Shown here: positions 6,840 through 42,134 of the stretch, piece after piece
Numbering within the stretch: position 1 is the stretch's first letter
Layout of the letters: the number at the start of each line of letters is the position of its first letter
IMG/VR virus record: IMGVR_UViG_3300044712_000506
Location: 1 to 45,509 of that record
DNA from: a virus
Direction: 5' to 3' (one strand)
Length of the DNA: 45,509 bases
Program-made: the position numbers and the translations under genes
The notes under the pieces: generated by a model
Databases searched by the model: none
Told to the model about the DNA's origin: nothing
Seen by the model: the letters and a program-made list of their open reading frames with translations, nothing else

Positions 6840-6872
6840 TTGCAGTCCCTTTTTGTTTGTTACAGTTAACAC

Positions 6873-6896: not shown

Positions 6897-6906
6897 GGAG
6901 TTTTAT

Positions 6907-7155: not shown

Positions 7156-7177
7156 TACTATTGGAAGGTAATGTCAA
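7150..7177 (-). promoter_or_regulatory. Sigma70-type early promoter
   Basis: On the minus strand: TTGACA (7177-7172), 16-bp spacer, TATACT (7155-7150). It lies in the 56-bp gap just after the stop of the OmpA-like gene (7179) and drives gene 6907-7122. Confidence 0.75.
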
Positions 7178-17726: not shown

Positions 17727-17749
17727 TTGCTTGTTCCTTTTTGTTTAAC

Positions 17750-22120: not shown

Positions 22121-22124
22121 GTTT

Positions 22125-22667: not shown

Positions 22668-22676
22668 TTTATATCC

Positions 22677-24187: not shown

Positions 24188-24910
24188 TTAATCTTCTTTA
24201 TAATATGGATTTTTAGGATCAGTGTCACCTGTCATATCGGGCCACCAATCTAGTTTAAATCTTTTTCCATCTGCAAACATTTTTTTCATTGCTTTAATAC
24301 GAGTTTCATATTCAGTTTTAGATGGTTTAATATTACCTTCAACAACATCAATTACATACTGTATAGTAACTGCATTAGCACTTAAACTGGCACAACGAGC
24401 ACCTACTTCACCTTTTAGATGATCAATTAAAATACTTTCACTGCTTTTTGCTAAATCATCGGATAAATCATGAGGTACCTTTAAATCAACATAAGAGTAA
24501 ACATAGTCATAATGTGGAGCTGGAGAAGAGTGTAAAATAAATTCATCCAAGACTTCAATTCGTTTAAATCCGTCTTGATTATGCCAAATAGCTCTCTTAG
24601 TTGTTAATTCATCTGGTTCACCAAAGAATTTTTGTAGATGTTTGACATAATTAGCTGGTTCAGTATTTTCCCACTTATCTAAAATATTAGAACTTTCGGC
24701 TAATTTACCTCTTTTACCATATGCACCACCTGCATACCATTCGCACCAACCATTTGGTGAAATAATGCCTGCAACTGCACTACACTTATTAGGATCTCTC
24801 CACATAGTGCAATTAATACATTTGTTTCCGTTTTTAGGAGAATCTTGATAACCAGCTTCTTCCTTAGAAGCCTTCTTTGATTCTTCAAGATACTTTTTAA
24901 ATTTGATCAT
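24188..24910 (-). CDS. Predicted capsid-cargo protein with HiPIP-type iron-sulfur signature
   Basis: 240 residues. Capsid-targeting-like N-terminus MIKFKKYLEES. Residues 20-60 contain Cys31, Cys34, Cys43 and Cys56. The segment from Cys43 to Tyr59 matches the HiPIP signature C-x(6,9)-[LIVM]-x(3)-G-[YW]-C-x(2)-[FYW]. The remaining 170 residues (KHLQKFFGEPDELTTKRAIW, later KRFKLDWWPDMTGDTDPKNP) form a domain I do not recognise. A 4Fe-4S or zinc site in a cargo protein would be unusual. The start overlaps the next gene by 4 bases. Confidence 0.75.
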   Translation of the reverse strand: MIKFKKYLEESKKASKEEAGYQDSPKNGNKCINCTMWRDPNKCSAVAGIISPNGWCEWYAGGAYGKRGKLAESSNILDKWENTEPANYVKHLQKFFGEPDELTTKRAIWHNQDGFKRIEVLDEFILHSSPAPHYDYVYSYVDLKVPHDLSDDLAKSSESILIDHLKGEVGARCASLSANAVTIQYVIDVVEGNIKPSKTEYETRIKAMKKMFADGKRFKLDWWPDMTGDTDPKNPYYKED

Positions 24911-25317
24911 ACCTTCAACACTGGATTAGGAGTTGAGAAATTCTTTTTGCGCATGATTGTTTTTGCAATAACAACAAGTTCATCCTTGTCTCTGTCATAT
25001 TCAACTGCGATTGGCATATTTAGGTCAGTTTGAAGATCCTTAATAACGGCTTCTGCATCAACAAACTTGTTTAATGACTTTTCACCGTGTTGATACTTCT
25101 TATAGATTTTCTGGATCATACCAGCTAGCTCTTTCATGTCAATACATGGATCATTGCGCTCGTGTGACATACGTTCACGAAAATGCTTTGTAAACTCGAA
25201 GTCAATTCCGAATTTGTCAAACATTTTGTCTACAAACTGCTCAAATGCTTTCATGTGAGCAGCTGTTAATATCGGGCATGTTTCAGCTTCTAGTACGAAC
25301 TGTTTAAAACGTAACAT
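24907..25317 (-). CDS. Predicted capsid-cargo protein (136 aa)
   Basis: N-terminus MLRFKQFVLEAE is capsid-targeting-like. A helical region leads to FTKHFRERMSHERNDPCIDM and a beta C-terminus (MPIAVEYDRDKDELVVIAKT). The HFxxRxxxERN...I-x-x-EL layout recalls small RelE/BrnT-like or DUF4258-like domains that end in a beta-sheet with conserved His and Arg, which would suggest an RNA target. That is only a resemblance. Confidence 0.7.
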   Translation of the reverse strand: MLRFKQFVLEAETCPILTAAHMKAFEQFVDKMFDKFGIDFEFTKHFRERMSHERNDPCIDMKELAGMIQKIYKKYQHGEKSLNKFVDAEAVIKDLQTDLNMPIAVEYDRDKDELVVIAKTIMRKKNFSTPNPVLKV

Positions 25318-28040: not shown

Positions 28041-28595
28041 TTAGTTCTTCAAGTTAAAAACACCAGTATCAAAATATGTTTTATAACAGTATTGTTTTTC
28101 TTTGCTATAGTCGTGATCAACATCTGCAAAACTTTTGTGTTTGATATAAAATGTTGGTGTTTCTTTCCAATCAAACCCGTAAACATCTACTGACTTTGGA
28201 TTAAATTTTGTCATATAATGCAATATTCTAAAGCCAGTTGTGACCTTTTTAGGTGTAAATAGATCCTTTATTTCATTTATTGCATCTTGACTAATACTAG
28301 AATCAAATTTAGTATTTGGTAAAGCATAATTCATCTGTAATCTTTTATAGGTCTGTGGTATTTTACTTTTCATAGAATTGTCAAATACTTCCAGCGATTT
28401 ATAAAGATTAAAACACCATATGTCAACTTTTATTCCATGAGTTTCAATATTAGTTCTTTGTGAACAAACTTCTATACCTTTATTGATCCTAATAACTACA
28501 TCATGTGAGTCAATTTCAGATCCATATGATTTATTAAAAAGAGACTTTGCATTTCCTATAATAGCAACTGTTTTATTATCAAACCATTCATTCAT
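28041..28595 (-). CDS. GT29-like (sialyltransferase-type) glycosyltransferase, copy 2
   Basis: 184 residues. N-terminal sialyl-motif-like VAIIGNAKSLFNKSYGSEID followed by SHDVVIRINKG (10-40), then TTGFRILHYM and VYGFDWKETPTF (about 138-149), and His/Glu near the end (VDHDYSKEKQY). Small bacterial GT29-like proteins have this core. It is a tandem paralogue of 28592-29152: both keep YGFDWKETPTF and share a 33-base identical stretch. Last gene of the glycan operon. Confidence 0.78.
   Translation of the reverse strand: MNEWFDNKTVAIIGNAKSLFNKSYGSEIDSHDVVIRINKGIEVCSQRTNIETHGIKVDIWCFNLYKSLEVFDNSMKSKIPQTYKRLQMNYALPNTKFDSSISQDAINEIKDLFTPKKVTTGFRILHYMTKFNPKSVDVYGFDWKETPTFYIKHKSFADVDHDYSKEKQYCYKTYFDTGVFNLKN
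28149..28181. repeat. 33-base identical repeat, copy in GT29-like gene 2
   Basis: Identical to 28703-28735. It covers the codons of GFDWKETPTF in the two tandem paralogues. DNA identity, not only protein identity, points to recent duplication or gene conversion. Confidence 0.8.
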
Positions 28596-29152
28596 GATCT
28601 TAATCTCACGTTAGGTAATGTCAATATTTCTGATGCAACATATGCCTTTTCGGTCACAAAATCATGTGGACACACTCTATCTCTTACTCTTTTGGGATCG
28701 GTAAATGTTGGTGTTTCTTTCCAATCAAACCCGTATATATCTAATGATTTAGGATTACAATACATAATCCAATCAATAGCAATAAGACCCGTTGTCGGAT
28801 TATTATGAGTACCTGCTTTTCTACGAAGTCTTTCATAATTTGGTATCATAGGATATACAAAATCTGCATATTTTGTGTTTGCATCAAATCTTGCCTGGTG
28901 TCCAGCGTGCATCTTTTTTACATTTGGCCATTTTGGGAAATGATTTCGATATTCACTGGTATTCCAAAAGATCCAAACATCGGTTCTTCTTCCGTGACTC
29001 TTTTCTGCATCCATATTACTATATAACATTGCAGCCTTATTTAGTCTCACAACAACATCATGCGAGTCAATTTCAGATCCGTAATCTTTGTCAAAAAGAG
29101 ACATAGCATTGCCTATTAATGCAACACTTTTATTTTCAAACCACTCTTTCAT
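28592..29152 (-). CDS. GT29-like (sialyltransferase-type) glycosyltransferase, copy 1
   Basis: 186 residues with VALIGNAMSLFDKDYGSEID and SHDVVVRLNKA at the N-terminus, then NNPTTGLIAIDWIM and IYGFDWKETPTF, and a C-terminal CPHDFVTEKAYV (conserved His and Glu). Tandem duplicate of the next gene, with diverged middle parts, so acceptor specificity probably differs. Donor could be CMP-sialic acid or another nucleotide sugar. No CMP-sialate synthesis gene is visible in the window. Confidence 0.78.
   Translation of the reverse strand: MKEWFENKSVALIGNAMSLFDKDYGSEIDSHDVVVRLNKAAMLYSNMDAEKSHGRRTDVWIFWNTSEYRNHFPKWPNVKKMHAGHQARFDANTKYADFVYPMIPNYERLRRKAGTHNNPTTGLIAIDWIMYCNPKSLDIYGFDWKETPTFTDPKRVRDRVCPHDFVTEKAYVASEILTLPNVRLRS
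28703..28735. repeat. 33-base identical repeat, copy in GT29-like gene 1
   Basis: Identical to 28149-28181 in the neighbouring paralogue, while flanking codons differ. Confidence 0.8.
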
Positions 29153-29790
29153 ATTATCTCAAAACCTTCTTTGTAATTGTGTTTTGCGACACAACCTGTT
29201 AGTTTTTGTACTGTACTAAATGAGTCATGGACTTCCACGGGCCATGGATAAAATTCTTCAATCCACGAAAAATTCCGTCTATCTATAAAAACATCCGTAG
29301 GTATTGCTTTCAACCTTGATCTATTTATTAGATCTGTAGCTGCTTTGGGATTTATCATATATGCATGAGCACCAGGTAAATAGTCTTTTGAAGTTAATGG
29401 ACTGATACCATTAGCAGGAACTCTGAATTTTCCATATGAAGGTTTACCAAGTGATAAGACACCCTTGAAGTTTAAATTCATATCTATTTTATCTATAATT
29501 ACGGCATCGTGTTCTAAAATGAATAAGTTCTCATTTGTTTCAACGCACTTTTTCCAAAGACTATAATGTGATAGAAAACAAGCAATTGCATTTTCTTTTC
29601 TAGAAAATCGTTCATCAAAACCACTTATATTAATATCATATTTTTTGGCTAATTTAAATACACCATCCTTCGGCGTAATAGCAGGAAAAATCTCAATATC
29701 TATTCCGAATTGCTTTCCGCTTTCAATACAGCGCTTTGCAATTTCTACTGATTTTGGTAGTGTTGTGATTGTAATTACATATGTTTTCAT
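29149..29790 (-). CDS. GT25-family (LPS) glycosyltransferase
   Basis: 213 residues. The GT25 pattern is visible: VITITTLPKSVEIAKRCIES near the start, then ENAIACFLSHYSLWKKCVET (about 66-85), NLFILEHDAVII (about 88-99, EHDA in place of the DxD) and PGAHAYMINPKAATDLI. These enzymes add galactose-type residues to LPS cores. It overlaps both neighbours by 4 bases. Confidence 0.85.
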   Translation of the reverse strand: MKTYVITITTLPKSVEIAKRCIESGKQFGIDIEIFPAITPKDGVFKLAKKYDINISGFDERFSRKENAIACFLSHYSLWKKCVETNENLFILEHDAVIIDKIDMNLNFKGVLSLGKPSYGKFRVPANGISPLTSKDYLPGAHAYMINPKAATDLINRSRLKAIPTDVFIDRRNFSWIEEFYPWPVEVHDSFSTVQKLTGCVAKHNYKEGFEII

Positions 29791-30479
29791 AATGATGTCG
29801 TTGATTGTAAACCTTGAACTTTAGTATAATATTTTTTAGTAACACCTAATTTTGGAATTAATTGCCGACACATAATAGCATCATTAGGCCAAAGACCATG
29901 TTTATCTACTAATTCCAATAATTTTTTGGCTCCATTTGGTTTAAGTATATATGCAGAATTACCTGCCAATCCTTGTGGTATTTTATCATCGTCTATAATC
30001 GGTACTAATTGAAATGGTAGTTCCGATTCTTGTATTTTAGAATGAAATAAATTTGCCCTCCTTGTGGCACCAATTGGATTGTTAATGCCAATTATATTAG
30101 CATTTGTATCATTTGGATCAAAATCTAATTTTTCTATAAACATCGCATCATGTTCTAGAATTAACATAGTTGTGTCATTAAATGCACTTTCACTCCAGAG
30201 GCAATAATGACTTGCAGCACAAGCTATTCTAGCTTTTGGATTTGCCGTAGTATAAGCACTCTTAAGTAATTCAGTATCTTTATCATACTCAGAACCTTTC
30301 CATGGATAATTCCATCTAATGTTGGCATTAAGCATAAAATTATCCACAGTTTCAGGTGTGATTGCATTCCATTTTAGAATATCAAAATCATTACCGACTT
30401 GTTTTGATGTTTCTACAAGCCTATTATAACCTTGTTCTGATATTTTATTACCTTTAACTACTATACAAACCGCTTTCAT
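29787..30479 (-). CDS. GT25-like glycosyltransferase
   Basis: 230 residues. It follows the same order as its neighbour: ARIACAASHYCLWSESAFND (about 83-102), TTMLILEHDAMFIEKLDFDP (103-122) and GLAGNSAYILKPNGAKKLLE (around 165-190). It is a diverged paralogue of gene 29149-29790, so the operon contains two successive GT25 enzymes that probably add different residues. Confidence 0.82.
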   Translation of the reverse strand: MKAVCIVVKGNKISEQGYNRLVETSKQVGNDFDILKWNAITPETVDNFMLNANIRWNYPWKGSEYDKDTELLKSAYTTANPKARIACAASHYCLWSESAFNDTTMLILEHDAMFIEKLDFDPNDTNANIIGINNPIGATRRANLFHSKIQESELPFQLVPIIDDDKIPQGLAGNSAYILKPNGAKKLLELVDKHGLWPNDAIMCRQLIPKLGVTKKYYTKVQGLQSTTSL

Positions 30480-30487
30480 ATATCACC

Positions 30488-31096
30488 TTATTGATAAAAT
30501 ACACTATCCAATTCACCGACTATTTCACGCTTATAATTCATTGACTCAAATAAATCTAATATCTTCTGGTAATTAGGATTTGATGTCTGCAATTCTATTA
30601 AAATTGTTGGTTTAAATTCTTGAATTGTATTTAATGAACCTAATAGTGCATATAATTCATAATCTTCAACATCAATCTTCATAAAATCTACATTTTTGAT
30701 ATTGAATGAATCAATTTTAACTACTCTCACATCTTGGTATTTTTGATCTTTCTCTTTTGTTTTTACAATATTAGAACCACCACTACGGTATATACCGACT
30801 CTCATGGTTTCTATTTTTTCTTCGTCTCCTACAGCATAAGGATGAACTTTGAGATTATCACTAGTCACATTTTTTAAAATATACTCATGAAATAATGGCT
30901 CAAATGCGTGTACATATTCAAAATCTTTTACCATTCGATAGGACATAATTCCTAAATTTGCTCCAACATCAATGGCCACTCTTCTATTTTTTACCTTTGA
31001 CATAGCTAAATTGTATTCTGACAGTTGATATGTTTCAAATGTATTGTGAGGGTATTTACCCAGCCAATTTTCACCCTCTGGTTTGTGTATCTTCAT
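30488..31096 (-). CDS. FkbM-type methyltransferase
   Basis: 202 residues from ATG 31096 (MKIHKPEGENWLGKYPHNTF), taken because it has an AAGGACAG site. An upstream ATG would overlap the preceding gene. SAM-binding loop AIDVGANLGIMSYRM (about 41-55), then HAFEPL and the FkbM-typical VDFMKIDVEDYELYALLGSL (about 137-156). It probably O-methylates a sugar of the glycan built by the operon. Confidence 0.88.
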   Translation of the reverse strand: MKIHKPEGENWLGKYPHNTFETYQLSEYNLAMSKVKNRRVAIDVGANLGIMSYRMVKDFEYVHAFEPLFHEYILKNVTSDNLKVHPYAVGDEEKIETMRVGIYRSGGSNIVKTKEKDQKYQDVRVVKIDSFNIKNVDFMKIDVEDYELYALLGSLNTIQEFKPTILIELQTSNPNYQKILDLFESMNYKREIVGELDSVFYQ

Positions 31097-31107
31097 TATT
31101 TCTGTCC

Positions 31108-31662
31108 TTATTTTGAATAATGTATCCAAGTAAATCTATTAGGAGACACAATTGAATTACCGAAAAACTCGCGAACAGCTCTAGATACCTGAGATGAATT
31201 ATAATCGTCACCTGCAATTATACCACCTTTTTTCAATTTTGGCAACCAAGCTTGAATGTCATTTTTAACATCTATATATTCATGTGACGCATCAATATAG
31301 ATAAAATCTAATGAGTTATTTTCAAATTGCGATGCAGCTTCAACACTTGTAGATCTAATTGGGTTATAATAACCAGCGAAAGGTGCTAAGTTAAGATTAA
31401 AAACTTCAAATAGTCGATCATTCACTACATCAGGATCGGTTTGATGCCCATCTTCAGTAAGAGTACCTTTCCATGTGTCCACGCAATAGAATGTAATAGC
31501 CTTTTTGCTATTCATAATTTGTTCTGCCATAAAGGAAGCACTTTTACCTTTCCAGCAGCCGATTTCAACAAATTTAGCATTATCTGCTGCTTTTGCCACA
31601 ACTTCCTTATATAAATCTGGACAGTTAAACCAGCCTTGAATAGTCTTATAATGATCTTTCAT
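31108..31662 (-). CDS. Class I SAM-dependent methyltransferase (CmcI/Methyltransf_24-like)
   Basis: 184 residues. Motif I KFVEIGCWKGKSASFMAEQI (about 30-49), then ITFYCVDTWKG (56-66), LDFIYIDASHEYIDVKNDIQ (about 120-139) and KLKKGGIIAGDDY. The IDASHEY block is typical of methyltransferases acting on sugars or small molecules. Second methyltransferase of the operon, coupled by 4-base overlap to the glycosyltransferase upstream. Confidence 0.85.
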   Translation of the reverse strand: MKDHYKTIQGWFNCPDLYKEVVAKAADNAKFVEIGCWKGKSASFMAEQIMNSKKAITFYCVDTWKGTLTEDGHQTDPDVVNDRLFEVFNLNLAPFAGYYNPIRSTSVEAASQFENNSLDFIYIDASHEYIDVKNDIQAWLPKLKKGGIIAGDDYNSSQVSRAVREFFGNSIVSPNRFTWIHYSK

Positions 31663-32384
31663 ATTTTATCTCCAAAATATTTGTTTATGTAAGTCGGTAT
31701 TGATTTCTTTCTGTATTGACCAAAATGCAAGAATGTTGCATCGTGATCTGATCTTGATGATTCGTCGGCATCAAATGCAAGATTTGTAAATTTTCTGTCC
31801 ATTCTGTTATGGTCTCTAAATCGTATATCTTTATGTGAAGTGCCAGTGCATCTCATGCACATTTGTTCAAATGACATACCGTCCAGTATTTTTGCTTTAT
31901 GCATTAACCAAGATAAAAGTATTTCATCTCCCGAATAACTATCAACTACTTTGCTAGACAGCCATTTCCAATCAGCATGTTCTCTCATCTTTACTCGTTG
32001 ATCTTTAGTAGTCATTATATAGTTACCAAAGAATACTGGAATACCTATTTCAAACAAGTCTGGTGCTGCCTTTGGTGTTCTGGATTCACCTTTCATTGCT
32101 CTGTCATGCAATACACCAATTTCAGGCTGAAGAAAAGCATCTTTATAGACATTTGTTGCAATCACATCCATATCAAGCATTAGCACTTTATCATATTGAT
32201 CATATTCTTCTGTAATGTATACTAGCTTCTGAGGATTTGGTCCTAAATCTTTACCAAGGGGATAACCTTCTACTAATTTGTATTGACAACCAATCTTTTC
32301 AGCATAAAGTTCCATGGATTTCTTAGCAAGTTTAGCCCATTCTGGCAACGAACCATTCCAATGTTGAAGTATTATATTTGCCAT
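31659..32384 (-). CDS. DxD glycosyltransferase
   Basis: 241 residues. N-terminal IILQHWNGSLPEWAKLAKKS, then KVLMLDMDVIATNVYKD (about 66-82), where DMD is the metal-binding DxD motif, and a C-terminal ATFLHFGQYRKKS. This is the GT8/GT-A type layout also seen in two neighbours beginning II-x-QH/Y-W/F-x-G. Three related enzymes suggest expansion by duplication. Start makes a TAATG overlap. Confidence 0.8.
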   Translation of the reverse strand: MANIILQHWNGSLPEWAKLAKKSMELYAEKIGCQYKLVEGYPLGKDLGPNPQKLVYITEEYDQYDKVLMLDMDVIATNVYKDAFLQPEIGVLHDRAMKGESRTPKAAPDLFEIGIPVFFGNYIMTTKDQRVKMREHADWKWLSSKVVDSYSGDEILLSWLMHKAKILDGMSFEQMCMRCTGTSHKDIRFRDHNRMDRKFTNLAFDADESSRSDHDATFLHFGQYRKKSIPTYINKYFGDKI

Positions 32385-33046
32385 TATATGATACCTTTTT
32401 GGACAAGGTCCTGGTAATTTTCTAGTTTCAGTCTTTTTGGACCCTGTGGTGTAATCTTTGTTCTAATATGTATCATATTTGCTTTCTCTGGATTTGGTAG
32501 AAAACTGCATTGATTCCAAGAAAAATCCAAATACGACTCTTTCATATTTGCAATACTTGCTAAATGTGCAAGGATACCTTCATCTTCAAAATAGTATGGT
32601 TGATTAAATACATCCATCCAATTATCATTTTTAGGCATTACAGATCTTAATACTTGTCTTTCTTGTAAAGTAAATTTATATATTGAACCAGCCCAATATG
32701 GATTATTAGATTTAATCTTACCTAATTTGATTAATTTCTCTTTTAATTTTGCTTGAGTTGGGCCATGTATACCATTACCTGGAACTTCAAATATGTTTGT
32801 CTCCAAATTCTTTCGGATAAAAACATCAATATCAAGCATTAAAACAGTTTCATAATTATCCCAGTGTTTATCTATACAATATACTTTCTGGCATGGACTT
32901 GTCAAATGTTCTCGAAACGGCTTACCTTTAAATAGTTCGTAATCAGCACCAATTGTCTTTGCATATCCTTTGATATTGTCTATCGACAATTTATCTAATT
33001 CTCTCAAGTCACCATCAAAGTGCTGTAAAATGATATTCTTTTTCAT
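32384..33046 (-). CDS. DxD glycosyltransferase
   Basis: 220 residues. Begins MKKNIILQHFDGDLRELDKL. DxD in VLMLDIDVFIRKNLETNIFE (about 68-87), then GAIYKFT-like substrate region and a late MIHIRTKITPQGP. Same family as genes 31659-32384 and 33053-33883. Nucleotide-sugar donor unknown. Confidence 0.8.
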   Translation of the reverse strand: MKKNIILQHFDGDLRELDKLSIDNIKGYAKTIGADYELFKGKPFREHLTSPCQKVYCIDKHWDNYETVLMLDIDVFIRKNLETNIFEVPGNGIHGPTQAKLKEKLIKLGKIKSNNPYWAGSIYKFTLQERQVLRSVMPKNDNWMDVFNQPYYFEDEGILAHLASIANMKESYLDFSWNQCSFLPNPEKANMIHIRTKITPQGPKRLKLENYQDLVQKGII

Positions 33047-33052
33047 ATAAAC

Positions 33053-33883
33053 TCACACAGGATCATTTGGCCAATTTTTGTGAACTGACAAGTTCCAGTC
33101 TGCAACAGGTAAATTGGTTACTCTCCATAACTCATCTGGTGACCAATCATCTGCAGTTCGGAACATAACATGCACGAGTTTTGTATTTGAAGTTCTTGTA
33201 TCATTCACTCTTGCTGTAGGATGTGATCCAAGTTTGTGTACATAAGAGTTCCATCCATTATCTAATTTTACAAACTCAAAATCTTGTTTGTGTATGAATG
33301 CAGAAAAGTAATCCTGAAATAGATTATAGAAATTCGGTAATTTTGATTTTCTCATGACATTGACATAATCTTGAAATGAAGGCCATGTTGATCTAATTTT
33401 CTTAATTCCTGCCTTGGAAAGTATTACAACACCTGTATTGAATACTAAAGGTCTTTGCTGTTCATCGACAGAATAGTTTATATCCCACTTTTGTTTTAAA
33501 ATAGATGCCCAGCGTCTGTCATTATCAAGATTAATACCTGCTACATTATATATTGATCTGAAATATGGTTGTTCAGGTTCCGTGCATATAGCAGCATCAG
33601 CAGTTCCTATTGCATCAAATATATTTTCTGTCAAACCTTCTACTGGAAAAACATCAATGTCTACTAAAACAACATTATCATAATCATCAAATGAGCCATC
33701 AACTAAAGGATTTGCTGGTTCATAATAGATTGGAATGTCTACTGTTTTACTTGCAATTTCTATATTGTGATCAAATCTATAATCTGCACCAATTAAATCA
33801 GCATACTGTTTCATTAATTTTGTGCTAGTTAAAACACCAGGTTTTAACGGTCCTTTCCAATATTGGTATATGATATTTTTCAA
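33053..33883 (-). CDS. DxD glycosyltransferase with TTG start
   Basis: 276 residues. The TTG at 33883 is chosen because it overlaps the glf stop as TTGA, follows AAAGGAAAAA and begins MKNIIYQYWKGPLKPGVLTS, aligned with its paralogues. DxD in VVLVDIDVFPVEG (about 71-83), then a central GVVILSKAGIKKIRSTWP and C-terminal VHVMFRTADDW. A longer frame opening at an upstream ATG would intrude into glf. Confidence 0.8.
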   Translation of the reverse strand: MKNIIYQYWKGPLKPGVLTSTKLMKQYADLIGADYRFDHNIEIASKTVDIPIYYEPANPLVDGSFDDYDNVVLVDIDVFPVEGLTENIFDAIGTADAAICTEPEQPYFRSIYNVAGINLDNDRRWASILKQKWDINYSVDEQQRPLVFNTGVVILSKAGIKKIRSTWPSFQDYVNVMRKSKLPNFYNLFQDYFSAFIHKQDFEFVKLDNGWNSYVHKLGSHPTARVNDTRTSNTKLVHVMFRTADDWSPDELWRVTNLPVADWNLSVHKNWPNDPV

Positions 33884-34896
33884 GTTATTTTTCCTTTGAA
33901 TTTTTCTACAATTGCTAATGATGAATTTATTGCCTGATCCATATCTATGTATACATACATTCCACATCTTCCAATGAATGTAGTTTTTGTATTTTCAATT
34001 GCCTTGTATCTATTATACAAGTTTCTATTTTCTCCATTTATATCTTTTACTGGATAAAATCTCTTAAAATCATTTTCTTTATAGTCGCAAGGTTCTTCAT
34101 ATGTTAATGTAGTCCATTTATCTGAAGTTCCATGATTTGGAAATTGTTTCCATTCTGTCATTCTTGTGTATTTTCCATCATGTGTAAAATTGACAACAGA
34201 TGTTGGAAGAACTTTAGTCATTGGTAAAGAGACATGATGAAATTTTAAAGATCTATAAGGTAAATGTCCAAATTCATAATCATAATAACAGTCAATAGCC
34301 ATTGAATTAAAAACATGACTATAATCTGTTTCCATATCTTTTGTAAATGGAGTATTTAAACTAACTTTTATATTTTCGTGGTTTAAAATATCTTTGAATA
34401 CTTCAGTATAACCATACTTTGGCATTACATTATATAGAGCATCTGGGAAATAATATTCATTGTCATCATCTCGAATTGGAACTCTTTTTAAGATATTTGG
34501 ATCTAATTCTTCGAGTTCTTTATCCCACATTTTTTTAGTATAAGGGCGATAAAATATATCTATGATATTTTCTTTACCAACTTTATTTTTGGTCTCTCTA
34601 TTTACTGGTAATGTAACATACTCACCATTTGATAATTGTGCTTTGACTTTGTGTTTATACTCAACCCATTCACTAAATTGAGTCACCCATTCATAAACCT
34701 TTTTATTGTTTGTGTGAAAAATGTGAGGTCCATATTTGTGTATTCGTATGCCGTGTTCATTTTCATAATCATATGCATTACCAGCAATATGATCACGTTC
34801 ATCAATGACATCGACAAAGAAACCAAGTTTTGCTAATTCATGTGCAATCACGGAACCGGAAAATCCAGCTCCTACAACTAATATTTTTTCTTTCAT
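33880..34896 (-). CDS. glf: UDP-galactopyranose mutase
   Basis: 338 residues. FAD-binding VVGAGFSGSVIAHELAKLG (7-25), then GNAYDYE, the active-site block HKYGPHIFHTNNKKVYEWV (about 53-71) and C-terminal FIGRCGMYVYIDMDQAINSS. It converts UDP-Galp to UDP-Galf, the donor for galactofuranose. One of the adjacent transferases is therefore probably a Galf transferase. Rare in phages. Confidence 0.94.
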   Translation of the reverse strand: MKEKILVVGAGFSGSVIAHELAKLGFFVDVIDERDHIAGNAYDYENEHGIRIHKYGPHIFHTNNKKVYEWVTQFSEWVEYKHKVKAQLSNGEYVTLPVNRETKNKVGKENIIDIFYRPYTKKMWDKELEELDPNILKRVPIRDDDNEYYFPDALYNVMPKYGYTEVFKDILNHENIKVSLNTPFTKDMETDYSHVFNSMAIDCYYDYEFGHLPYRSLKFHHVSLPMTKVLPTSVVNFTHDGKYTRMTEWKQFPNHGTSDKWTTLTYEEPCDYKENDFKRFYPVKDINGENRNLYNRYKAIENTKTTFIGRCGMYVYIDMDQAINSSLAIVEKFKGKIT

Positions 34897-35669
34897 AGTT
34901 TACTCATTAACATATTGACGTTTTCACCTTTTTCAGGTAAGTGATCTTTCAGGAAGAAGTGGATGAAATGTGCATTCTTTATTTGGCTATCTTCAACAGC
35001 CGTATATAATGCATTCCACTTCCAAGATAGCGCCTTTACTGACATTTTCTCTTTCTTGATCCAATAATTTAAAAGTGTCTGATCGGTCGACCATTTCCAG
35101 TTTCCTAGACCATCGACAAATCGCTTAAATTCTGGACGTGTAATAAATTCATATGGAGTATTTCCGCGAAGATACTCTTTCAGATTTTTACTGAAGAGCA
35201 TCATGCCCATGTTCATAAATTCACCACCTCGGTCATTCCATTTCCAGTCAACGTCTTTCAATGATCCATATTGACCTTGAGAGTATGATTTGATCTTTGC
35301 TGCATACTTTGGTGTAATTGGCATATCACGTTCGACAACACCCGCAAATGTATGTGAACCAAGTTCATCAAAGATATTAGGGGCTGTATCACGAATGTAA
35401 ATATCAGCATCAATAATTGCAATTGCATCATATTGATCTAGATATGAAAATGCATTTTCTTTTTCATAGATTGGAAGATAACCTAATCGTTGGAATGACT
35501 GCAAGCTTCTATTCATAACAGAAACATCTGGTTGAATTTTAAGAATAGGTTCTTTCTGTACGATATAATCTATGTTATATTTTTTGCAATAGTTTTTGAC
35601 TGAATCTGTACAGAAATTGTAAAGATTACTTTCTGAACCCAGATAGACTTGATAAATCATATATCTCAT
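34893..35669 (-). CDS. DxD glycosyltransferase
   Basis: 258 residues. Central IAIIDADIYIRDTAPNIFDE (about 83-102) supplies the DxD (DAD). GGEFMNMGMMLFSKNLKEYL and DQTLLNYWIKKE follow, the usual GT-A acceptor and D-Q features. It ends FIHFFLKDHLPEK, with the His expected for nucleotide-phosphate binding. Coupled at both ends by 4-base overlaps. Confidence 0.8.
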   Translation of the reverse strand: MRYMIYQVYLGSESNLYNFCTDSVKNYCKKYNIDYIVQKEPILKIQPDVSVMNRSLQSFQRLGYLPIYEKENAFSYLDQYDAIAIIDADIYIRDTAPNIFDELGSHTFAGVVERDMPITPKYAAKIKSYSQGQYGSLKDVDWKWNDRGGEFMNMGMMLFSKNLKEYLRGNTPYEFITRPEFKRFVDGLGNWKWSTDQTLLNYWIKKEKMSVKALSWKWNALYTAVEDSQIKNAHFIHFFLKDHLPEKGENVNMLMSKL

Positions 35670-36274
35670 GGTAACTTAATATCCCAAGGCTTTGGTTTCC
35701 CGTGAAATGCAATAATAGCGGCATCTTTGGGAACACCATTTCTACAATGAACTTTCCAACTTACTAATTTTTGAGGGAATACATCCTGCCAATAGACAAC
35801 ATGATGTTTAATGGTCTTTTCAATAAAACCTTGGTCGCCCCACCATCTCGATGTCGTGCATTCTTGCATGTGCCGTTCAGGATCTTTTAGAAATTCATCA
35901 TACAAATATTTCATATCACCATTCCAAGCCATTACACCGGAACCAAGAGTTCTCTGCATTCTTCTATCTTTGTAAAAATCACGTATAGCAACAAAATCAT
36001 ACTTGGTGACATTTTCCAATATTGGTCTCAGGTCACTTACGATAATGGTATCGAGATCTAGGTAAAGTACTGGGCCTTGTATTTTAAAGATTTCCATCTT
36101 TGGCCACCACCTTGGCCATGCGTGTTCCATTTTAACATATCCTGGAACTGATGGATCATCTGATATACAAACAAACTCAATACCAGGTGCATATTTCTGG
36201 CACTGTTTATATAAAAGTTCCACATAGTCTTTCTTATAATCATTACTTGTTTTTAATACTGTAACAATTTTCAT
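35666..36274 (-). CDS. GT-A glycosyltransferase, first gene of the glycan operon
   Basis: 202 residues. PVLYLDLDTIIVSDLRPILE (about 68-87) gives the DxD. SGVMAWNGDMKYLYDEFL, WWGDQGFIEKTI and IIAFHGKPKPWD follow, all canonical GT8-like features of phage and bacterial enzymes. It starts shortly after a terminator hairpin with no clear promoter between, so the operon may rely on readthrough. Confidence 0.85.
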   Translation of the reverse strand: MKIVTVLKTSNDYKKDYVELLYKQCQKYAPGIEFVCISDDPSVPGYVKMEHAWPRWWPKMEIFKIQGPVLYLDLDTIIVSDLRPILENVTKYDFVAIRDFYKDRRMQRTLGSGVMAWNGDMKYLYDEFLKDPERHMQECTTSRWWGDQGFIEKTIKHHVVYWQDVFPQKLVSWKVHCRNGVPKDAAIIAFHGKPKPWDIKLP

Positions 36275-36475: not shown

Positions 36476-36539
36476 TTTTGGTCTCTTTTGATTTCTTTTC
36501 GTCTTTAGTATCTTCGCCGTAATAAGGTATATGTGCCAT
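36468..36539 (-). CDS. Possible 23-residue peptide
   Basis: ATG 36539 overlaps the TAA of the DUF1127-like gene (TAATG) and encodes MAHIPYYGEDTKDEKKSKET plus three residues. It fills the gap between two genes and is translationally coupled by position, but no further evidence supports it. It could equally be untranslated spacer. Confidence 0.35.
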   Translation of the reverse strand: MAHIPYYGEDTKDEKKSKETKNA

Positions 36540-36880
36540 TATTGTGCCCATCCCTGTAAAAATGCTCTTCCCTGAATTTGCCATGGTGCATTGCCACGGT
36601 CGATTGCTTTGATACGGTTTTCAAGATCAACTAGACTTGTTGATTCAGAAAGATATTCATCAATTTTTGCTTTTTCGGTTTTTACTTTGAAGAAGTTGCG
36701 GAATAGATTAAACTCGAATTTTACTTCTTCACCATATGTTGCTTCGTGTGCAAGTCTGGCAATTTCTGATCTATCAATCCCAAGATCATATAATTCTCTA
36801 TCTGAAAGACTCTCGAGTTCCTTAAGGGTTCTGGTATAAATCAAGTGTCTTTTGTAAGCAATCATTATTGCTTTTAGCAT
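36539..36880 (-). CDS. DUF1127-like protein (113 aa)
   Basis: The first 45 residues contain YTRTLKELESLSDRELYDLG followed by IDRSEIARLAHEA, which is the DUF1127 helical hairpin common in alphaproteobacteria. The remaining 65 residues (EFNLFRNFFKVKTEKAKIDE and a C-terminal APWQIQGRAFLQGWAQ) are unrelated to typical stand-alone DUF1127. Its late promoter (36914-36921) argues for a late role. Some bacterial DUF1127 proteins bind RNA or affect phosphate/stress responses. Confidence 0.8.
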   Translation of the reverse strand: MLKAIMIAYKRHLIYTRTLKELESLSDRELYDLGIDRSEIARLAHEATYGEEVKFEFNLFRNFFKVKTEKAKIDEYLSESTSLVDLENRIKAIDRGNAPWQIQGRAFLQGWAQ

Positions 36881-36913: not shown

Positions 36914-36921
36914 TATTTATA
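36914..36921 (-). promoter_or_regulatory. T4-type late promoter for the DUF1127-like gene
   Basis: TATAAATA on the minus strand in the 105-bp gap after the fibre gene, with an expected leader of about 28 bases ending in a GGAG site before ATG 36880. The octamer lies in the loop of a short dyad (TTATGCCT and AGGCGTAA), which might affect transcription read-through as an RNA hairpin. Confidence 0.72.
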
Positions 36922-36985: not shown

Positions 36986-39319
36986 TTATAGCGCAACCTG
37001 TGTAACTGTAAGTATTGTCGATGGTGTAGCAGGAGCAAATGAAGTCGCAGCTGGTGCAGCAATAGAAACGGATGTGTCTGAAACTGCCCACATCAATTGA
37101 AAGAAACTTCCAGCATTCATTGAAACCATAAAATTCCAAGAAGGTACTATATATGAACCGTTTCCAGAAATTGTCAATCTTGATGCCGAATTTGGAATAT
37201 CTTGCCCGTCTTTTCTTGCCCAAATGTAAATTTCTTTTGATGCAGAATTACTAGAAACAAATTGAGTAGAGAATTTAAAATCATAAAGTCCAGACTGTTG
37301 TGTAATAACTTTTGTATTATCTGCTAAATCAATTGATACACCATTTGAAAACTCTGTTGTATTTAATGGGACTGCATATGCTGTATTTGCTGTATTAGCA
37401 GTATGGCTTTGACTATCGCTGAAAGCACCATAAAACTGTCTTTGTTCAACTATCGGTCTTACAAAGATTTCTCCTAATGTACTATCTTTCTTGACAACAA
37501 TTGCAAATGGTACTACGTTATTTGGTGCAGTTGGTTTAACGTTGACGAGATTACCTGCAACTGAAGAACTTGCATATAAAATATCACCAACATTCCAAGC
37601 ACTTGTATTTAAATCTCTTATTTTACCCCAAACAGTAACAAATCCATCAGATCCATTTTGAATATCTTGCGTTGTAATACCAAGACCATATATATTAGGA
37701 TATGTGCCATTTGCTAAAAATGGCTCAACTAGTAATCTTGAAGTTCCATCATCCTGTTCAGCACCAGAAAATCTTACAACAGTTCCGTTTAAAATTTTGG
37801 AACCTGTCCTATTGCGAACTTTGACATATAGTTCTTGCCCGACCTGTTGAACAACACCATCTGGATGATGTATATTGAGAGTAGTATCATCTTTATTCCA
37901 CGCAAGAACACCTTCGGTATTTGCTGTGTCGACATGAGTCGGATCAAATGTAATATAATCCACATTAGAAATTCCAGTAGTATCATTTTCATTAAATGAT
38001 AGACCGGCATCATCAATTGTTACTATTCTTGTCGGTGTAATTGTACCCTTTGGAGTAGTATAGATTTCAACTCTTGAACCACGTGTTGTTGAAGTAAAGT
38101 TTTCATCCGCAATAATACGAATACCACCAACTCCGATACCACCATAGCCATTGCCAGATGCCCACCCAGCAGCGGTGACATTTCCTATTATATCACCTGC
38201 GAGGATTGGCGAAGGTGTCTCATTTGTTCCCCTGCCTGTTCTAAATGTAAATTCACCACCAGTAATGCTTCTTGTGACATCAACACCATAAGAATCTAGA
38301 ACAATAAGAGGTGCTCTGTTATCTCTACCAGTAAATTGTGCCACACTTCCTGTTACAATTGCTGGAGTTCTTGTTCTACCTTGTTCATTTATGGTGACAT
38401 TAAGAGGTGCTCTTAAGCCCAAGTCATTTTTATTAACTATATTTAGCGTCGTCGCCGAAACATCGCCGGCATCATTGACTGAAAAGACAGGGTCTCTTGT
38501 GTCCAACGGCCCGTCAACTGGAAATATGCCGAATCTTCCAACAATATCAACTTGTCCCGTCCCGTTTGATTGGATAACAATGTCTTCATTTTCATTTAAG
38601 CTTGATAGATATGCCGCAGGCCCGCCTGATGCACCATTAGCAACATAGGCAAAGAAGTCACCGAATGAAAAATCCAAACCAGTTGGATCAATAATAAGTT
38701 GGTCAAACGGATTTAATGTTACACCCGGTCCTAATTTAAAACCCCCAAGTGTTGTTTCTGTAGCAACAGAAAGTGCTACTCTGTTACTTCCATCAAGTCG
38801 AATACCTTCACCAGTCTGGATTGTATTGAAGTAAAACTTTCTAGTATTTTGATCATATGTCAAATACTTGTTTAGACCAACAGATGAAGAAGTGACATCA
38901 TCTAATTTTGCAAACTTGACTTCACCACCGCCACCGATTGAACTCATTTGTTGCTGTATTCTATTCAAGAAATTTGAATAGTGATCATTCATTTCTTTGA
39001 ATGTAACAAATTTTTCATTTGGTGCTTTCCTAAGTGGATCATTCCATCTTTGAGCTTCAATGTTATCAGTTTTCTTTGTTAGTGCACTTGCTACTTGCTC
39101 TATTGGGTCTATAGCAATTTCTTCTTCCAATACTATTTCAGTATCAGATAATGTTGTTTCTTCTAAAACAGTTTCTAGCACTGGTTCAGGTTCAATTTTT
39201 GGTGCTGCTGATAATTTTGTTTCTTTCAACAATTTTGAAAAATTATCAAGCGCCTTTTCTTCTTTCTTTTGCTCTTGTGCTTCTTTGAGAAGTTTAGCAA
39301 ATTCTTTTAGTGAACTCAT
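36986..39319 (-). CDS. Large structural protein, fibre- or neck-fibre-like (777 aa)
   Basis: From ATG 39319 (MSSLKEFAKLLKEAQEQKKE) with a 4-base ATGA overlap. The N-terminal 100 residues are helical/acidic. The rest is Gly/Asn/Thr-rich beta-repeat sequence (LTYDQNTRKFYFNTIQTGEG, then GVTLNPFDQLIIDPTG) typical of phage fibre shafts. The last 130 residues, with SGLYDFKFSTQFVSSNSASK and a GSYIVPSWNFMVSMNAGSFF block, look like a C1q/TNF-like jelly-roll tip. Probably a virion adhesin or fibre. Receptor unknown, but it lies next to a glycan operon. Confidence 0.85.
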   Translation of the reverse strand: MSSLKEFAKLLKEAQEQKKEEKALDNFSKLLKETKLSAAPKIEPEPVLETVLEETTLSDTEIVLEEEIAIDPIEQVASALTKKTDNIEAQRWNDPLRKAPNEKFVTFKEMNDHYSNFLNRIQQQMSSIGGGGEVKFAKLDDVTSSSVGLNKYLTYDQNTRKFYFNTIQTGEGIRLDGSNRVALSVATETTLGGFKLGPGVTLNPFDQLIIDPTGLDFSFGDFFAYVANGASGGPAAYLSSLNENEDIVIQSNGTGQVDIVGRFGIFPVDGPLDTRDPVFSVNDAGDVSATTLNIVNKNDLGLRAPLNVTINEQGRTRTPAIVTGSVAQFTGRDNRAPLIVLDSYGVDVTRSITGGEFTFRTGRGTNETPSPILAGDIIGNVTAAGWASGNGYGGIGVGGIRIIADENFTSTTRGSRVEIYTTPKGTITPTRIVTIDDAGLSFNENDTTGISNVDYITFDPTHVDTANTEGVLAWNKDDTTLNIHHPDGVVQQVGQELYVKVRNRTGSKILNGTVVRFSGAEQDDGTSRLLVEPFLANGTYPNIYGLGITTQDIQNGSDGFVTVWGKIRDLNTSAWNVGDILYASSSVAGNLVNVKPTAPNNVVPFAIVVKKDSTLGEIFVRPIVEQRQFYGAFSDSQSHTANTANTAYAVPLNTTEFSNGVSIDLADNTKVITQQSGLYDFKFSTQFVSSNSASKEIYIWARKDGQDIPNSASRLTISGNGSYIVPSWNFMVSMNAGSFFQLMWAVSDTSVSIAAPAATSFAPATPSTILTVTQVAL

Positions 39320-40542
39320 CGTTGCCAACCTTTAACATATTCTGGTGAGAAGTTTGCTTTGCTGAATTGCAATCTATCAACCAATTTAAGTGCATTCTTT
39401 CCAAGATGGTCAATAGCAACAAAGCCTTCCTGATTAGTCACTTCGTAACCATCTTTGGTCTTAAGGAATGTTCTAAGACCGTTTACTCTATTAAGTTTAT
39501 CTAGAAGCATATATTTCACTTCATCCACAATATTGTAGATACGGAAAACATCTACAACATCCGAACCATGTTCTTTGAAGTATGAAAGAACCTCATCACG
39601 CTTCTTGAATGATGCTTGTTTACCAGCATCTGATTTCTTTTTGTCTGCATCTTTCTGGTAAAAATCTTCAATGTACTTGACAAGATCATCGACAAATTTC
39701 TTTGGATCACCGATACGTTGACCTTCACGGACTTTTACGTTAATGAATGCATTCACACGAATCCTACGATCCTCATTGCTTGAAAGACCATCTAGAACTG
39801 GACGCTTCATTTTTGCAAAGATTTTACCAGCTTCTGCGAGAAGGCTTGTCACATGTTTTGTTTCTTCTGCGGTCAATGTAGCATTACCAGATACATCCTT
39901 GAAAACTGCATCTACAGACCAGACGGTTTTTACTTTTTTGAGATTTGTTGCAATCTCCTGTCCAAAACTCGCTGACATTGATTCAAAAGAGTCTCCTCGG
40001 TATGTTGTGTGCCATACCACACCGATTTTGGATCCAAGTATTTGTTTAGCAAGATCGCTTTCTTTTGGTATCGCATAAACAATCGTGTTAGGATGGAAAG
40101 TAATATGCGGTTCTCCATCAATGTCAACTTCTTTAATATCTTCTCGCGCATAAAGAAAATCACCCTGTATCACGCCCTTGATTCCAAGTTTTGGCAACTC
40201 AGCAAGAGCTAGTTTCAATTTTACATTCAAATCACCTGATGTGTCTGCATCAATGTCAGCATCAGTTTTATATACTTTTGGATCTTTATTAAAGATACCT
40301 TTCTTTGCTACAAAGAATTTACCATCGGAAGGATCAATACCAGCAAAAACTGCTGGCGCTCCATCCCATTTGGTGGAAATATTCATTGGACTTTTTGTAT
40401 TACCAGCAAGAGTGTCTCTTAGAACTCTTAGATGGTTAATTGCTTGGCGAGTGCCTTCAACACCACCATCTATGATAGCATCCGCAAGATGCACCATATG
40501 TGTGTTCTTTTCTTCTTCTAGATACTGTTTGAATGATAACAT
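39316..40542 (-). CDS. Predicted KxDG-type nucleotidyltransferase/ligase with capsid-targeting-like N-terminus
   Basis: 408 residues, N-terminus MLSFKQYLEEEK. Candidate ligase motifs in order: motif I K58-W-D-G61 (STKWDGAPAVFAG), a motif III-like IKGVIQGDFLYA (121-132), motif IV EGFVA (372-376) and motif V KLVDRLQFSKANF (386-398). The distance between III and IV is longer than in DNA ligases, so an insert of about 200 residues is present. Proteins of this type in T4-like phages are usually unannotated (I recall the name DUF6267). Cargo-like, and coupled to a HAD phosphatase. Confidence 0.78.
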   Translation of the reverse strand: MLSFKQYLEEEKNTHMVHLADAIIDGGVEGTRQAINHLRVLRDTLAGNTKSPMNISTKWDGAPAVFAGIDPSDGKFFVAKKGIFNKDPKVYKTDADIDADTSGDLNVKLKLALAELPKLGIKGVIQGDFLYAREDIKEVDIDGEPHITFHPNTIVYAIPKESDLAKQILGSKIGVVWHTTYRGDSFESMSASFGQEIATNLKKVKTVWSVDAVFKDVSGNATLTAEETKHVTSLLAEAGKIFAKMKRPVLDGLSSNEDRRIRVNAFINVKVREGQRIGDPKKFVDDLVKYIEDFYQKDADKKKSDAGKQASFKKRDEVLSYFKEHGSDVVDVFRIYNIVDEVKYMLLDKLNRVNGLRTFLKTKDGYEVTNQEGFVAIDHLGKNALKLVDRLQFSKANFSPEYVKGWQR

Positions 40543-41148
40543 TTATACTTTCCTTACCGATCCATCATGTTGTACATGATATGCTTCAAACTCTATATTT
40601 GGATATTGTTTAGCAAGAGCCTTGAACATAGTAATATTGGACATTGCATCATCAAAGAAACGAACTCTCTCATATTTCCCGCCACGAAGATATTTATGAA
40701 AAATGAACCTTTTATTCTTGGCGGATGAACCAAGGTTTAGATTACCTGATCGTTCAACGTATACTTTATCTATGTCTATACCATATCTACGAAAGGTGTC
40801 AATGAATTTCTTTTTGTCGTCAAAATCTGCACGAGCTGTGACAACAATTACCTTTGATCCGGCATTGACAGCATTTGTAATGATTGCCTTAGCTTTTTTG
40901 ATCATAGACCAAATTGGAATTGATGTGTCGTGAAAAATTTCAGCATTTCTAAATTCGCCGTAATCGTATGTTTCACCTGGTTCAAGTTTATATGTATTGT
41001 ATTGCTGGTTGTCTAGCGATCTTACCAACTTGCCATTTTTCATCACACGGACAAGTGCTTTAGTGCGAAACAGAGTCTCATCAATATCAAAGATAGTGAG
41101 ACCCTTGCCACGTGTTTGTTCTTCCAAATAGTGTTTGAATGAAAGCAT
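40543..41148 (-). CDS. HAD-superfamily phosphatase with capsid-targeting-like N-terminus
   Basis: 201 residues. N-terminal MLSFKHYLEE is nearly identical to the ligase-like neighbour. The HAD core follows: motif I FDIDETL (Asp21 and Asp23, residues 20-26), motif II VIVVTARAD (100-108) and motif III RFFDDAMSN (163-171). It resembles the phosphatase half of T4 polynucleotide kinase/phosphatase, which removes 3' phosphates, but no kinase domain is present. Stop and neighbour start are directly adjacent. Likely substrate: nucleic-acid ends. Inference only. Confidence 0.85.
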   Translation of the reverse strand: MLSFKHYLEEQTRGKGLTIFDIDETLFRTKALVRVMKNGKLVRSLDNQQYNTYKLEPGETYDYGEFRNAEIFHDTSIPIWSMIKKAKAIITNAVNAGSKVIVVTARADFDDKKKFIDTFRRYGIDIDKVYVERSGNLNLGSSAKNKRFIFHKYLRGGKYERVRFFDDAMSNITMFKALAKQYPNIEFEAYHVQHDGSVRKV

Positions 41149-42105
41149 TTATTTTACGACCAATACGTTTTGATTAATACGAGTTTTACCTACGGCAAGT
41201 ACACGAATACCCGGATAAATTTTAGAACCTCTTCTAGAACTGTCATTTCTAATCAAGAAATAAACTGACTGCTTACCATTTTCTACTTCTGGTATTGTTC
41301 TATAAATCTCGGAAACAGTTACAACTATTGTTTCTCCATCTGGATCTATTTTAAAATCAGAAGATGAATATGTTTTATAGAGAACGGCACCATTACCCTT
41401 TATAATATCAGAACCAAATACAACATCTTCAGTTTCCTTGGTTGTCGCTTTGACTGCTATGTTTGGAGTAATTTTCTTTATGGCAGTACCTTCTAGTTTT
41501 ACTTTACCCAAAGAAACTTGTTTGTCAATAATTTCTTTTGCTTTTCCTGACCAATATGAGTCGGCAGACTCCCACATTTCAGCATTATCTTTTTTCAATG
41601 ACAATGGCACTTTCTTGCCATCCATTGTAAGTAAATTAACGTCTGATTTCTTTCGACCTGATGTATCTCTACCAACTTCTTCAGCGAGTTTCACATCTTC
41701 TACTCTAAATCGTTTTGATCCAGCTACAAATTCTACATGCATAGGACCGTCTTTTAAGAAGAAGTTTAATTGATTAATAAGAGTGTGTTCATTGTCAAGA
41801 CCAGCCGATCTATTTCCTTGTTTCGATGCTGGAGCTGCACCAACCGAAAACTTTCCAATGACTACTGCACCGACAGAAGAACTTCCTTTATTGGGATCAT
41901 ATTTTGCACCATAATCTGCAAAAAGGTGCTCAATCTTCTTTAAAAGATCAATTCTGTTTACACCATCTACTAAAACTTGAAATGATACAGCAGATTTGTC
42001 TTTGAATTTTTCGTAACCGAATGCTTGTGTGATTTTGTCTTTTAGACTATCAGCCGTCAAGTTTGCTGATTCTCTTAAAAAAGTAGAAAAATTCTTTATA
42101 GCCAC
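41149..42105 (-). CDS. Predicted PD-(D/E)xK-like nuclease with capsid-targeting-like N-terminus
   Basis: 318 residues with a GTG start at 42105 (weak site, late promoter upstream). N-terminus MAIKNFSTFLRESAN fits the cargo motif in a shifted form. Candidate nuclease core: Glu106 (GLDNEHTLINQL), Asp155 (RKKSDVNLLTMDG) and S-x-Lys171 (KVPLSLKKD), the order E...D...xK expected of restriction-type nucleases, with Ser instead of Glu in the third motif. Domain assignment is by eye and not certain. First gene of the three-gene trio. Confidence 0.65.
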   Translation of the reverse strand: MAIKNFSTFLRESANLTADSLKDKITQAFGYEKFKDKSAVSFQVLVDGVNRIDLLKKIEHLFADYGAKYDPNKGSSSVGAVVIGKFSVGAAPASKQGNRSAGLDNEHTLINQLNFFLKDGPMHVEFVAGSKRFRVEDVKLAEEVGRDTSGRKKSDVNLLTMDGKKVPLSLKKDNAEMWESADSYWSGKAKEIIDKQVSLGKVKLEGTAIKKITPNIAVKATTKETEDVVFGSDIIKGNGAVLYKTYSSSDFKIDPDGETIVVTVSEIYRTIPEVENGKQSVYFLIRNDSSRRGSKIYPGIRVLAVGKTRINQNVLVVK

Positions 42106-42126: not shown

Positions 42127-42134
42127 TATTTATA
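42127..42134 (-). promoter_or_regulatory. T4-type late promoter for the nuclease-phosphatase-ligase trio
   Basis: TATAAATA on the minus strand, 21 bp upstream of GTG 42105 and directly after the terminator hairpin of gene 42151-42342. Late transcription of the trio fits packaging of its products. Confidence 0.72.

Follow-up and report, generated by a model that had tools for sequence, protein, structure and literature searches.

A candidate late operon of head-targeted nuclease, phosphatase and ligase-like proteins in a T4-like phage

Results

The window analysed here is the whole of the 45,509-base IMG/VR virus record IMGVR_UViG_3300044712_000506, which is taken as a T4-like phage fragment because its right end encodes UvsX and a DnaB-like helicase, both recognised by profile matches. 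Our subject is a run of three minus-strand genes transcribed in the order NUC (41149-42105), HAD (40543-41148) and DUF6267 (39316-40542). NUC, of 318 amino acids, reads as a PD-(D/E)xK restriction-like nuclease whose residues 9-99 make up an alpha/beta subdomain at the N-terminus; HAD, a predicted phosphatase of 201 amino acids, most resembles the phosphatase portion of the polynucleotide kinases of phages; and DUF6267, of 408 amino acids, is a ligase-superfamily adenylyltransferase-like protein with a helical insertion at residues ~213-351. An earlier note on this DNA, made from its letters alone, had described the three genes as adjacent and coupled, and the open reading frames bear this out, the TAA stops of NUC and of HAD directly abutting the ATG of the next gene.

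The same note had placed a late promoter ahead of the trio, and an exact match to the T4-type late promoter, TATAAATA, does lie on the minus strand at 42127-42134, 22 nucleotides (nt) upstream of NUC. Sites like TATAAATA are not above chance over the window (99 seen vs. 98.8 expected, one mismatch allowed), and the motif is informative by its placement only, not by its genome-wide count. Among relatives, the exact sequence lies close to the NUC start in 9/15 distinct cases and close to the start of 36/109 genes that occupy the position directly upstream of DUF6267 (hereafter, the slot), where its spacing is 18-23 nt; it was found before neither UvsX (0/63) nor DnaB (0/83), and turns up in 2% of random 120-mers. 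By group, it was seen in 1/44 pelagiphage-like and in 35/69 remaining relatives.

Each of the three proteins opens with a short motif, here called the tag, of the kind that directs internal proteins into the T4 head. In T4, such N-terminal capsid-targeting sequences comprise 10-19 residues; in IPIII, residues 4 and 7 serve targeting and residues 8 and 10 processing, and the prohead protease gp21 cleaves after L/I-x-E (PMC9026906). The tag of the trio combines aromatic residues at positions 4 and 7 with L at 8 and E at 10 (F4, Y7, L8, E10). It reads MLSFKHYLEE in HAD (41119-41148, minus strand) and MLSFKQYLEE in DUF6267 (40513-40542, minus strand), both in register with the T4 positions, and MAIKNFSTFLRE in NUC (42070-42105, minus strand), where it is offset by two and cleavage is predicted after E12; the corresponding (L/I)-x-E sites for the prohead protease are FLRE in NUC and YLEE in both HAD and DUF6267. 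The pattern defined by the T4 positions is present in 3/3 members of the trio vs. 0/69 DnaB, 1/45 UvsX and 8/12,147 internal methionines, so that the cargo-like N-terminus previously noticed on each gene equals the T4 capsid-targeting positions and stands far above chance. Among relatives, a conserved core can be recognised behind 105 distinct DUF6267 N-termini, and in 91 of these L/I/V-x-E falls immediately ahead of it. Many slot proteins likewise open with the tag or something very near it, 36/105 by the strict pattern. The 137-kilobase (kb) relative G001 has the tag in only 6 of its 269 open reading frames (ORFs), namely two clusters and one gene by head genes. A gp21-type prohead protease is not encoded in this 45-kb fragment; it was found in 7/9 related records searched, G001 included. 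From these N-termini we infer that the trio may be packaged in the phage head.

The gene at 39316-40542 belongs over its whole length to the Pfam family DUF6267 (PF19782; 1e-107, 361 bits vs. a cut-off of 27) and also to phrog_455. The family is present in 399 phage records, mainly of Synechococcus and Prochlorococcus phages, and its name was searched for in 5.39 million open papers without a match. Its ATP-ligase-like core, which had been predicted from a few motifs, is deeply conserved: a set of 48 homologues shows no variation at K58, D60, G61, K81, Q126-G127-D128, E372-G373, V375, K386 and R390, and KxDG and QGD are kept in 199/199 homologues, EGxV and KxVDR in 196/199. The superfamily motifs occur in order on the minus strand: motif I is KWDG (residues 58-61; 40360-40371), with the candidate adenylylated lysine, motif III takes the form QGD, motif IV is EGFV (residues 372-375; 39418-39429) and motif V is represented by K386 (39385-39387). 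The helical block at ~213-351 is inserted ahead of motif IV, and the DUF6267 protein of phage S-CREM2, with 295 amino acids, is without it and keeps all four motifs. An AlphaFold model (pLDDT 87.1, pTM 0.81) was compared with the Protein Data Bank (PDB) by VIA-align, and the top 33 entries were all RNA or DNA ligases (Z 8.4 to 6.2; root-mean-square deviation 3.7-5.3 over 164-203 residues), headed by Naegleria RNA ligase (8.4), fungal tRNA ligase (7.9) and trypanosome editing ligase (7.5), followed by T4 Rnl1 (7.4) and Rnl2 (7.3) and then by DNA ligases. The structural check proposed in the earlier note thus yielded nucleotidyltransferase-type (ligase) matches with moderate scores. Since the hits are uniformly ligases and the motifs keep their order, the modelled DUF6267 protein is, despite the moderate Z, very probably a ligase-superfamily adenylyltransferase. 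Sequence-profile searches of the PDB with the DUF6267, HAD and nuclease alignments gave nothing relevant. As a side observation, DUF6267 of phage S-PM2 (AJ630128, 103025-104804; L085) is split across two annotated frames, the second of which runs into a cytidylyltransferase, and a 591-amino-acid S-PM2 UniProt entry joins both; the split could be a frameshift, a sequencing error or a fusion.

The best family match of HAD is phrog_415, polynucleotide kinase (4.4e-9, residues 6-177), and its match to Pfam HAD IIIB (1.5e-4) is below the cut-off. The phosphatase core that had been read in this protein holds, with all four HAD motifs (DxD, T, K, DD) intact and D21/D23/T25, T104, K144/K146 and D166/D167 invariant over 20 homologues. 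In these homologues, some of which lie away from DUF6267, the tag residue E10 is nearly invariant. Searching phage genomes with tblastn found no homologue, and those available come only from IMG/VR relatives. No kinase family matched the 201-amino-acid protein, which shows HAD only and no P-loop 5'-kinase domain. The likeness of HAD to the phosphatase of phage polynucleotide kinase, and the higher rank of RNA over DNA ligases in the DUF6267 structural list, would fit a set for RNA repair akin to T4 Pnkp/Rnl that enters together with the DNA and immediately counteracts tRNA-cutting defences of the host. We deem this reading of the trio unlikely, however, as no 5'-kinase lies beside it, the constant partner of DUF6267 is a nuclease rather than HAD, and G001 has a PF09414 RNA ligase elsewhere.

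NUC matches phrog_12709, a family of unknown function (1e-52), and was modelled with AlphaFold 2 at a pLDDT of 87.9. The PD-(D/E)xK-like core proposed for it, comprising E106, D155 and K171, could be located on an alpha-beta core in the model: E106 (41788-41790) sits in the helix 101-117 before the core, and D155 (41641-41643) and S169-K171/K172, within the SLKK of motif III (residues 169-172; 41590-41601), lie at the adjacent strands 156-160 and 165-171, all positions being on the minus strand. Among 32 homologues, no substitution was seen at D155, S169, K171 or K172. Structural alignment gave HinP1I (Z 6.7 over 164 amino acids) and MspI (Z 6.7 over 173 amino acids), and several restriction enzymes and resolvases appear among weak Foldseek matches. 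Residues 9-99 resemble nucleotidyltransferase-type alpha/beta folds, which may be merely a common arrangement. Untagged homologues of NUC are found in KVP40 and a Stenotrophomonas phage, both without DUF6267.

The gene order of relatives led us to reject the idea of a conserved trio, and with it the fixed kit put forward in the earlier note: the upstream nuclease is exchanged among many families, and HAD is optional and limited to a subset of relatives. Over 204 DUF6267 loci, the directly upstream gene falls into ~20 sequence clusters, and the slot holds more than 10 sequence-dissimilar nuclease-like families. A D...(S/E)xK core was seen in 69/75 distinct upstream genes vs. 89/311 control proteins; the D...SxK pattern also fits 29% of control proteins and 31% of shuffles and, being this loose, was used only as enrichment. 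The upstream gene lies within ~30 nt of DUF6267 in 169/186 cases, most overlapping it by 1-8 nt. Profile comparison links the NUC family of the window, through the catalytic core, to slot families NUC179 and L021c; the L021 family, itself matching Type II restriction enzymes (3.4e-10), is also connected to the NUC family through an intermediate family. Three further hhalign links (L020c-L021c, L020c-L109c and L091c-L109c) were left unused because they run outside the catalytic core. Between HAD and DUF6267, relative L005 carries a tagged ADP-ribosyltransferase-like protein (5429-6001; ART-PolyVal 1.1e-5, below the curated cut-off) and relative L181 a tagged RelA/SpoT-like HD protein (6603-7157; 3.9e-17; TIGR00691 1.7e-27, a partial match). 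The conserved core of the system is DUF6267 with a coupled, rapidly replaced nuclease, to which HAD, ADP-ribosyltransferase-like and RelA/SpoT-like HD proteins are optional additions.

Such turnover recalls restriction enzymes, which are likewise swapped for unrelated families, and a sister slot family matches the Type II enzymes; moreover, nuclease-RNA ligase fusions have been proposed to act against superinfecting elements in phages (PMC7824862). All this would agree with an attack set, in which a nuclease injected into the cell would break down the chromosome of the host, its plasmids or rival phages, with the ligase-like and HAD proteins mending collateral damage to the nucleic acid of the phage itself. 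This explanation is possible but doubtful, since the surroundings of NUC in the window show no obvious gene for cognate protection or modification.

The distribution of other ligases bears on a different role. No match to DNA ligase (PF01068, PF01653) or RNA ligase (PF09414) was obtained in complete DUF6267-bearing Kyanoviridae genomes, a set spanning cyanophages and pelagiphages (S-PM2, S-CAM9, P-HM2, S-8S55, Melnitz, C48C1 and HTVC008M), and KVP40 and YB07 present the converse, with a DNA ligase and without DUF6267. S-CREM2 gp190, annotated as a DNA ligase, has 167 amino acids and is without KxDG. Because no other ligase is recognised in the three family searches, the data suggest that DUF6267 could serve as the DNA ligase of the Kyanoviridae. 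Extended to the trio, this would make DUF6267 the working DNA ligase of the phage, replacing T4 gp30 in replication and recombination, with packaging incidental or absent, and it is in line with the cyanophage DUF6267 genes being untagged and following the replication genes UvsX and DnaB. On the other hand, G001, G004, G005 and phage DLP6 carry a PF01068 DNA ligase together with DUF6267, so that a replacement of the missing DNA ligase everywhere was rejected, and a late promoter and a tag, as seen in the group of the window, do not suit a replication enzyme. We therefore rate a plain replication ligase as rather improbable here. The co-occurrence in these four phages also suggests that tagged and untagged DUF6267 proteins may have different duties. 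The PF09414 RNA ligase occurs in G005 as well as in G001, and because the latter, a close relative, has both an RNA and a DNA ligase, the trio need not be the sole repair enzymes.

The published virion proteomes of the cyanophages S-CREM2 (PMC10665884) and S-SZBM1 (PMC9146016) provide an independent view of the tag. The S-CREM2 virion contains 52 proteins of 219 ORFs. The strict motif is carried by three annotated proteins of this phage, a SAM (S-adenosylmethionine) hydrolase, an APH-like kinase and a cytidylyltransferase, and all of them were detected in the virion (3/3). Near variants of the tag occur among its virion proteins in gp13 and gp136, and gp12 has an internal match. The untagged DUF6267 of S-CREM2 (gp87) does not appear in the published virion list. 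In S-SZBM1, scanned with one residue more freedom in the motif, the cytidylyltransferase adjoining DUF6267 begins MRFRQFIIEA and was detected in the virion, and the untagged DUF6267 (SSZBM1_141), which starts MAKNTH, is absent from the list. Pooled over both phages, tagged proteins were detected in 4/6 cases and untagged DUF6267 in 0/2, numbers that are small and include no tagged DUF6267. The cytidylyltransferase T4-GC190, from the neighbourhood of DUF6267, is also present in S-SM1 virions (PMC3037559).

These proteomes bear as well on another alternative, namely that the motif at the N-termini has no targeting function and that the proteins remain cytoplasmic. It draws on two tagged S-SZBM1 proteins that escaped detection and on virion data that extend to no tagged DUF6267, HAD or NUC. 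It appears quite improbable, nonetheless, for the motif equals the mapped T4 positions, is near absent in controls and agrees with the S-CREM2 virion list.

Several other genes of the window deserve mention. A second cargo-like cluster of two tagged genes (MIKFKKYLEE and MLRFKQFVLE) lies at 24188-25317 on the minus strand, and is found also in G001, at 115.8-117.8 kb. Its member at 24188-24910 (minus strand), beginning MIKFKKYLEE, scores 22.6 bits against Pfam HIPIP (cut-off 22) and matches an iron oxidase family at 7e-10, below the cut-off of that family; judged by these matches, it might be a packaged iron-sulphur protein. Immediately after DUF6267 in the main operon, and joined to it by an ATGA overlap, comes a gene for a fibre-like protein of 777 amino acids (36986-39319, minus strand), whose likely start is the ATG at 39319 and not the TTG at 39328; a Pfam search with this protein gave no match, and its N-terminus, MSSLKEFAKLLKEA, weakly resembles the tag. 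The minus-strand proteins at 17256-18529 and 20965-23984 contain repeated EEVDLDEA / VEQIDELK segments with many L/I-x-E sites and might be head proteins that are scaffold-like or cleaved at several points. At 28041-36274 (minus strand), in the stretch that separates the clusters of tagged genes, some ten genes read as glycosyltransferase-, methyltransferase- and UDP-galactopyranose mutase-like; the last of them, the only member tested with profiles, is a phrog_1962 glycosyltransferase. The gene at 36539-36880 (minus strand) encodes a 113-amino-acid protein with a DUF1127 domain above the cut-off, and an exact late-promoter motif lies beside it at 36914-36921. To our knowledge, this domain is unusual in phages.

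Discussion

The reading we favour, with a probability of roughly 0.55, is that the trio constitutes a late operon whose products are head cargo of the T4 type. Late in infection, the first ~10 residues of each protein would dock on the prohead scaffold and a gp21-type protease would cleave after (L/I)-x-E, leaving the processed proteins in the head with the DNA, to be ejected at the next infection. What they would do in the new host is proposed with less confidence: the restriction-like nuclease may cut nucleic acid of foreign or host origin, the HAD enzyme may strip end phosphates and the DUF6267 enzyme may adenylylate 5' ends and seal them, nucleic-acid ends thus being processed before any phage gene expression. 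Either DNA or RNA as the substrate, and either attack or repair as the purpose, is compatible with this proposal.

Several results weigh against the cargo interpretation or against the enzymatic roles attached to it. Sequenced marine cyanophages have a DUF6267 that lacks the tag and starts directly at the core (MAKNTH...), the available proteomics cover no phage in which DUF6267, HAD or NUC is tagged, and the tagged proteins SSZBM1_191 and SSZBM1_192 are absent from the published S-SZBM1 virion list. Foldseek searches of the PDB gave no significant match for either the DUF6267 or the NUC model, and the best structural scores are moderate for both (Z 8.4 and 6.7, respectively). A comparison of DUF6267 by hhalign with six phage ligases, represented by two shallow alignments, gave a probability below 1% and so no significant match, although the forced alignment sets KWDG on KLDG and QGD on QGE. 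Finally, no kinase accompanies HAD.

Late expression and head targeting, both predicted from sequence, would also suit proteins whose task lies within the prohead, in trimming and sealing DNA or in shielding the ends of the genome, rather than in the host as effectors, and some HAD homologues adjoin a gene resembling the T4 gp4 head-completion nuclease, a candidate identity. Such a packaging-stage role seems the least probable of the explanations considered, as the variability of the slot and the inserted ADP-ribosyltransferase-like and HD proteins are more effector-like. Returning to the cargo reading, we put forward a broader version of it tentatively and with clearly lower confidence than the cargo reading itself: T4-like phages might share a widespread injected cut-and-seal system, in which a tagged DUF6267 is paired with swappable restriction-like nucleases and, optionally, with tagged end-healing or host-takeover enzymes, and which would attack the nucleic acid of rivals or of the host and repair that of the phage before gene expression.

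T4-like cyanophages, which account for most DUF6267 records, belong to the most abundant phages of ocean samples. Were the cargo reading true, enzymes that cut and seal nucleic acids would enter the cell along with the DNA of T4-like phages, and the first minutes of infection would have to be viewed differently. The ligase-superfamily assignment and the swappable nuclease slot make the function of DUF6267 directly testable. In S-CREM2 (OR473000), the tag or a near variant is carried by virion proteins gp6, gp12, gp13 and gp14, which include a SAM hydrolase, a Cas9-like nuclease and an APH-like kinase; their N-termini point to a possible and simple sequence rule for predicting packaged effectors, applicable to uncultured T4-like phages.

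T4-type capsid targeting and injected enzymes are already known; a packaged nuclease/phosphatase/ligase-like operon, the ligase assignment of DUF6267 and the exchangeable nuclease slot found no description in the literature searched. Like the trio, T4 IPI, IPII, IPIII and Alt combine a short N-terminal targeting sequence, an (L/I)-x-E site and late expression with varied cargo, and Alt, a packaged ADP-ribosyltransferase, parallels the ADP-ribosyltransferase-like protein in the same operon of L005. The putative cargo here differs in that a single coupled operon supplies a nuclease, a phosphatase and a ligase-like enzyme, and we know of no such packaged enzymes in T4. T4 Pnkp, Rnl1, Rnl2 and gp30, which are made after infection and not packaged, share the ligase-superfamily core and the HAD 3'-phosphatase-like partner; unlike them, the trio has no kinase, one of its coupled genes is for a nuclease, its ligase-like member contains a helical insertion, and its proteins bear the head-targeting tag.

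Outside T4 itself, the cyanophage virion enzymes (SAM hydrolase, APH-like kinase and cytidylyltransferase) are non-structural proteins of T4-like virions, most of those with the motif having been detected (PMC10665884, PMC9146016); the available parts of these two papers describe neither the N-terminal motif nor the nuclease/DUF6267 pair. The phage fusion of an Rnl2-family RNA ligase with an HNH nuclease, for which an attack on superinfecting elements has been proposed, also couples nuclease and ligase (PMC7824862), but it is a single fusion, whereas here the genes are separate, the PD-(D/E)xK families are swapped and a tag is present. Lastly, polyvalent proteins are enzymes co-delivered with invading DNA (PMC5512222), and L005 shows an ART-PolyVal domain match; polyvalent proteins are large multidomain polypeptides, whereas the operon described here encodes separate, individually tagged proteins.

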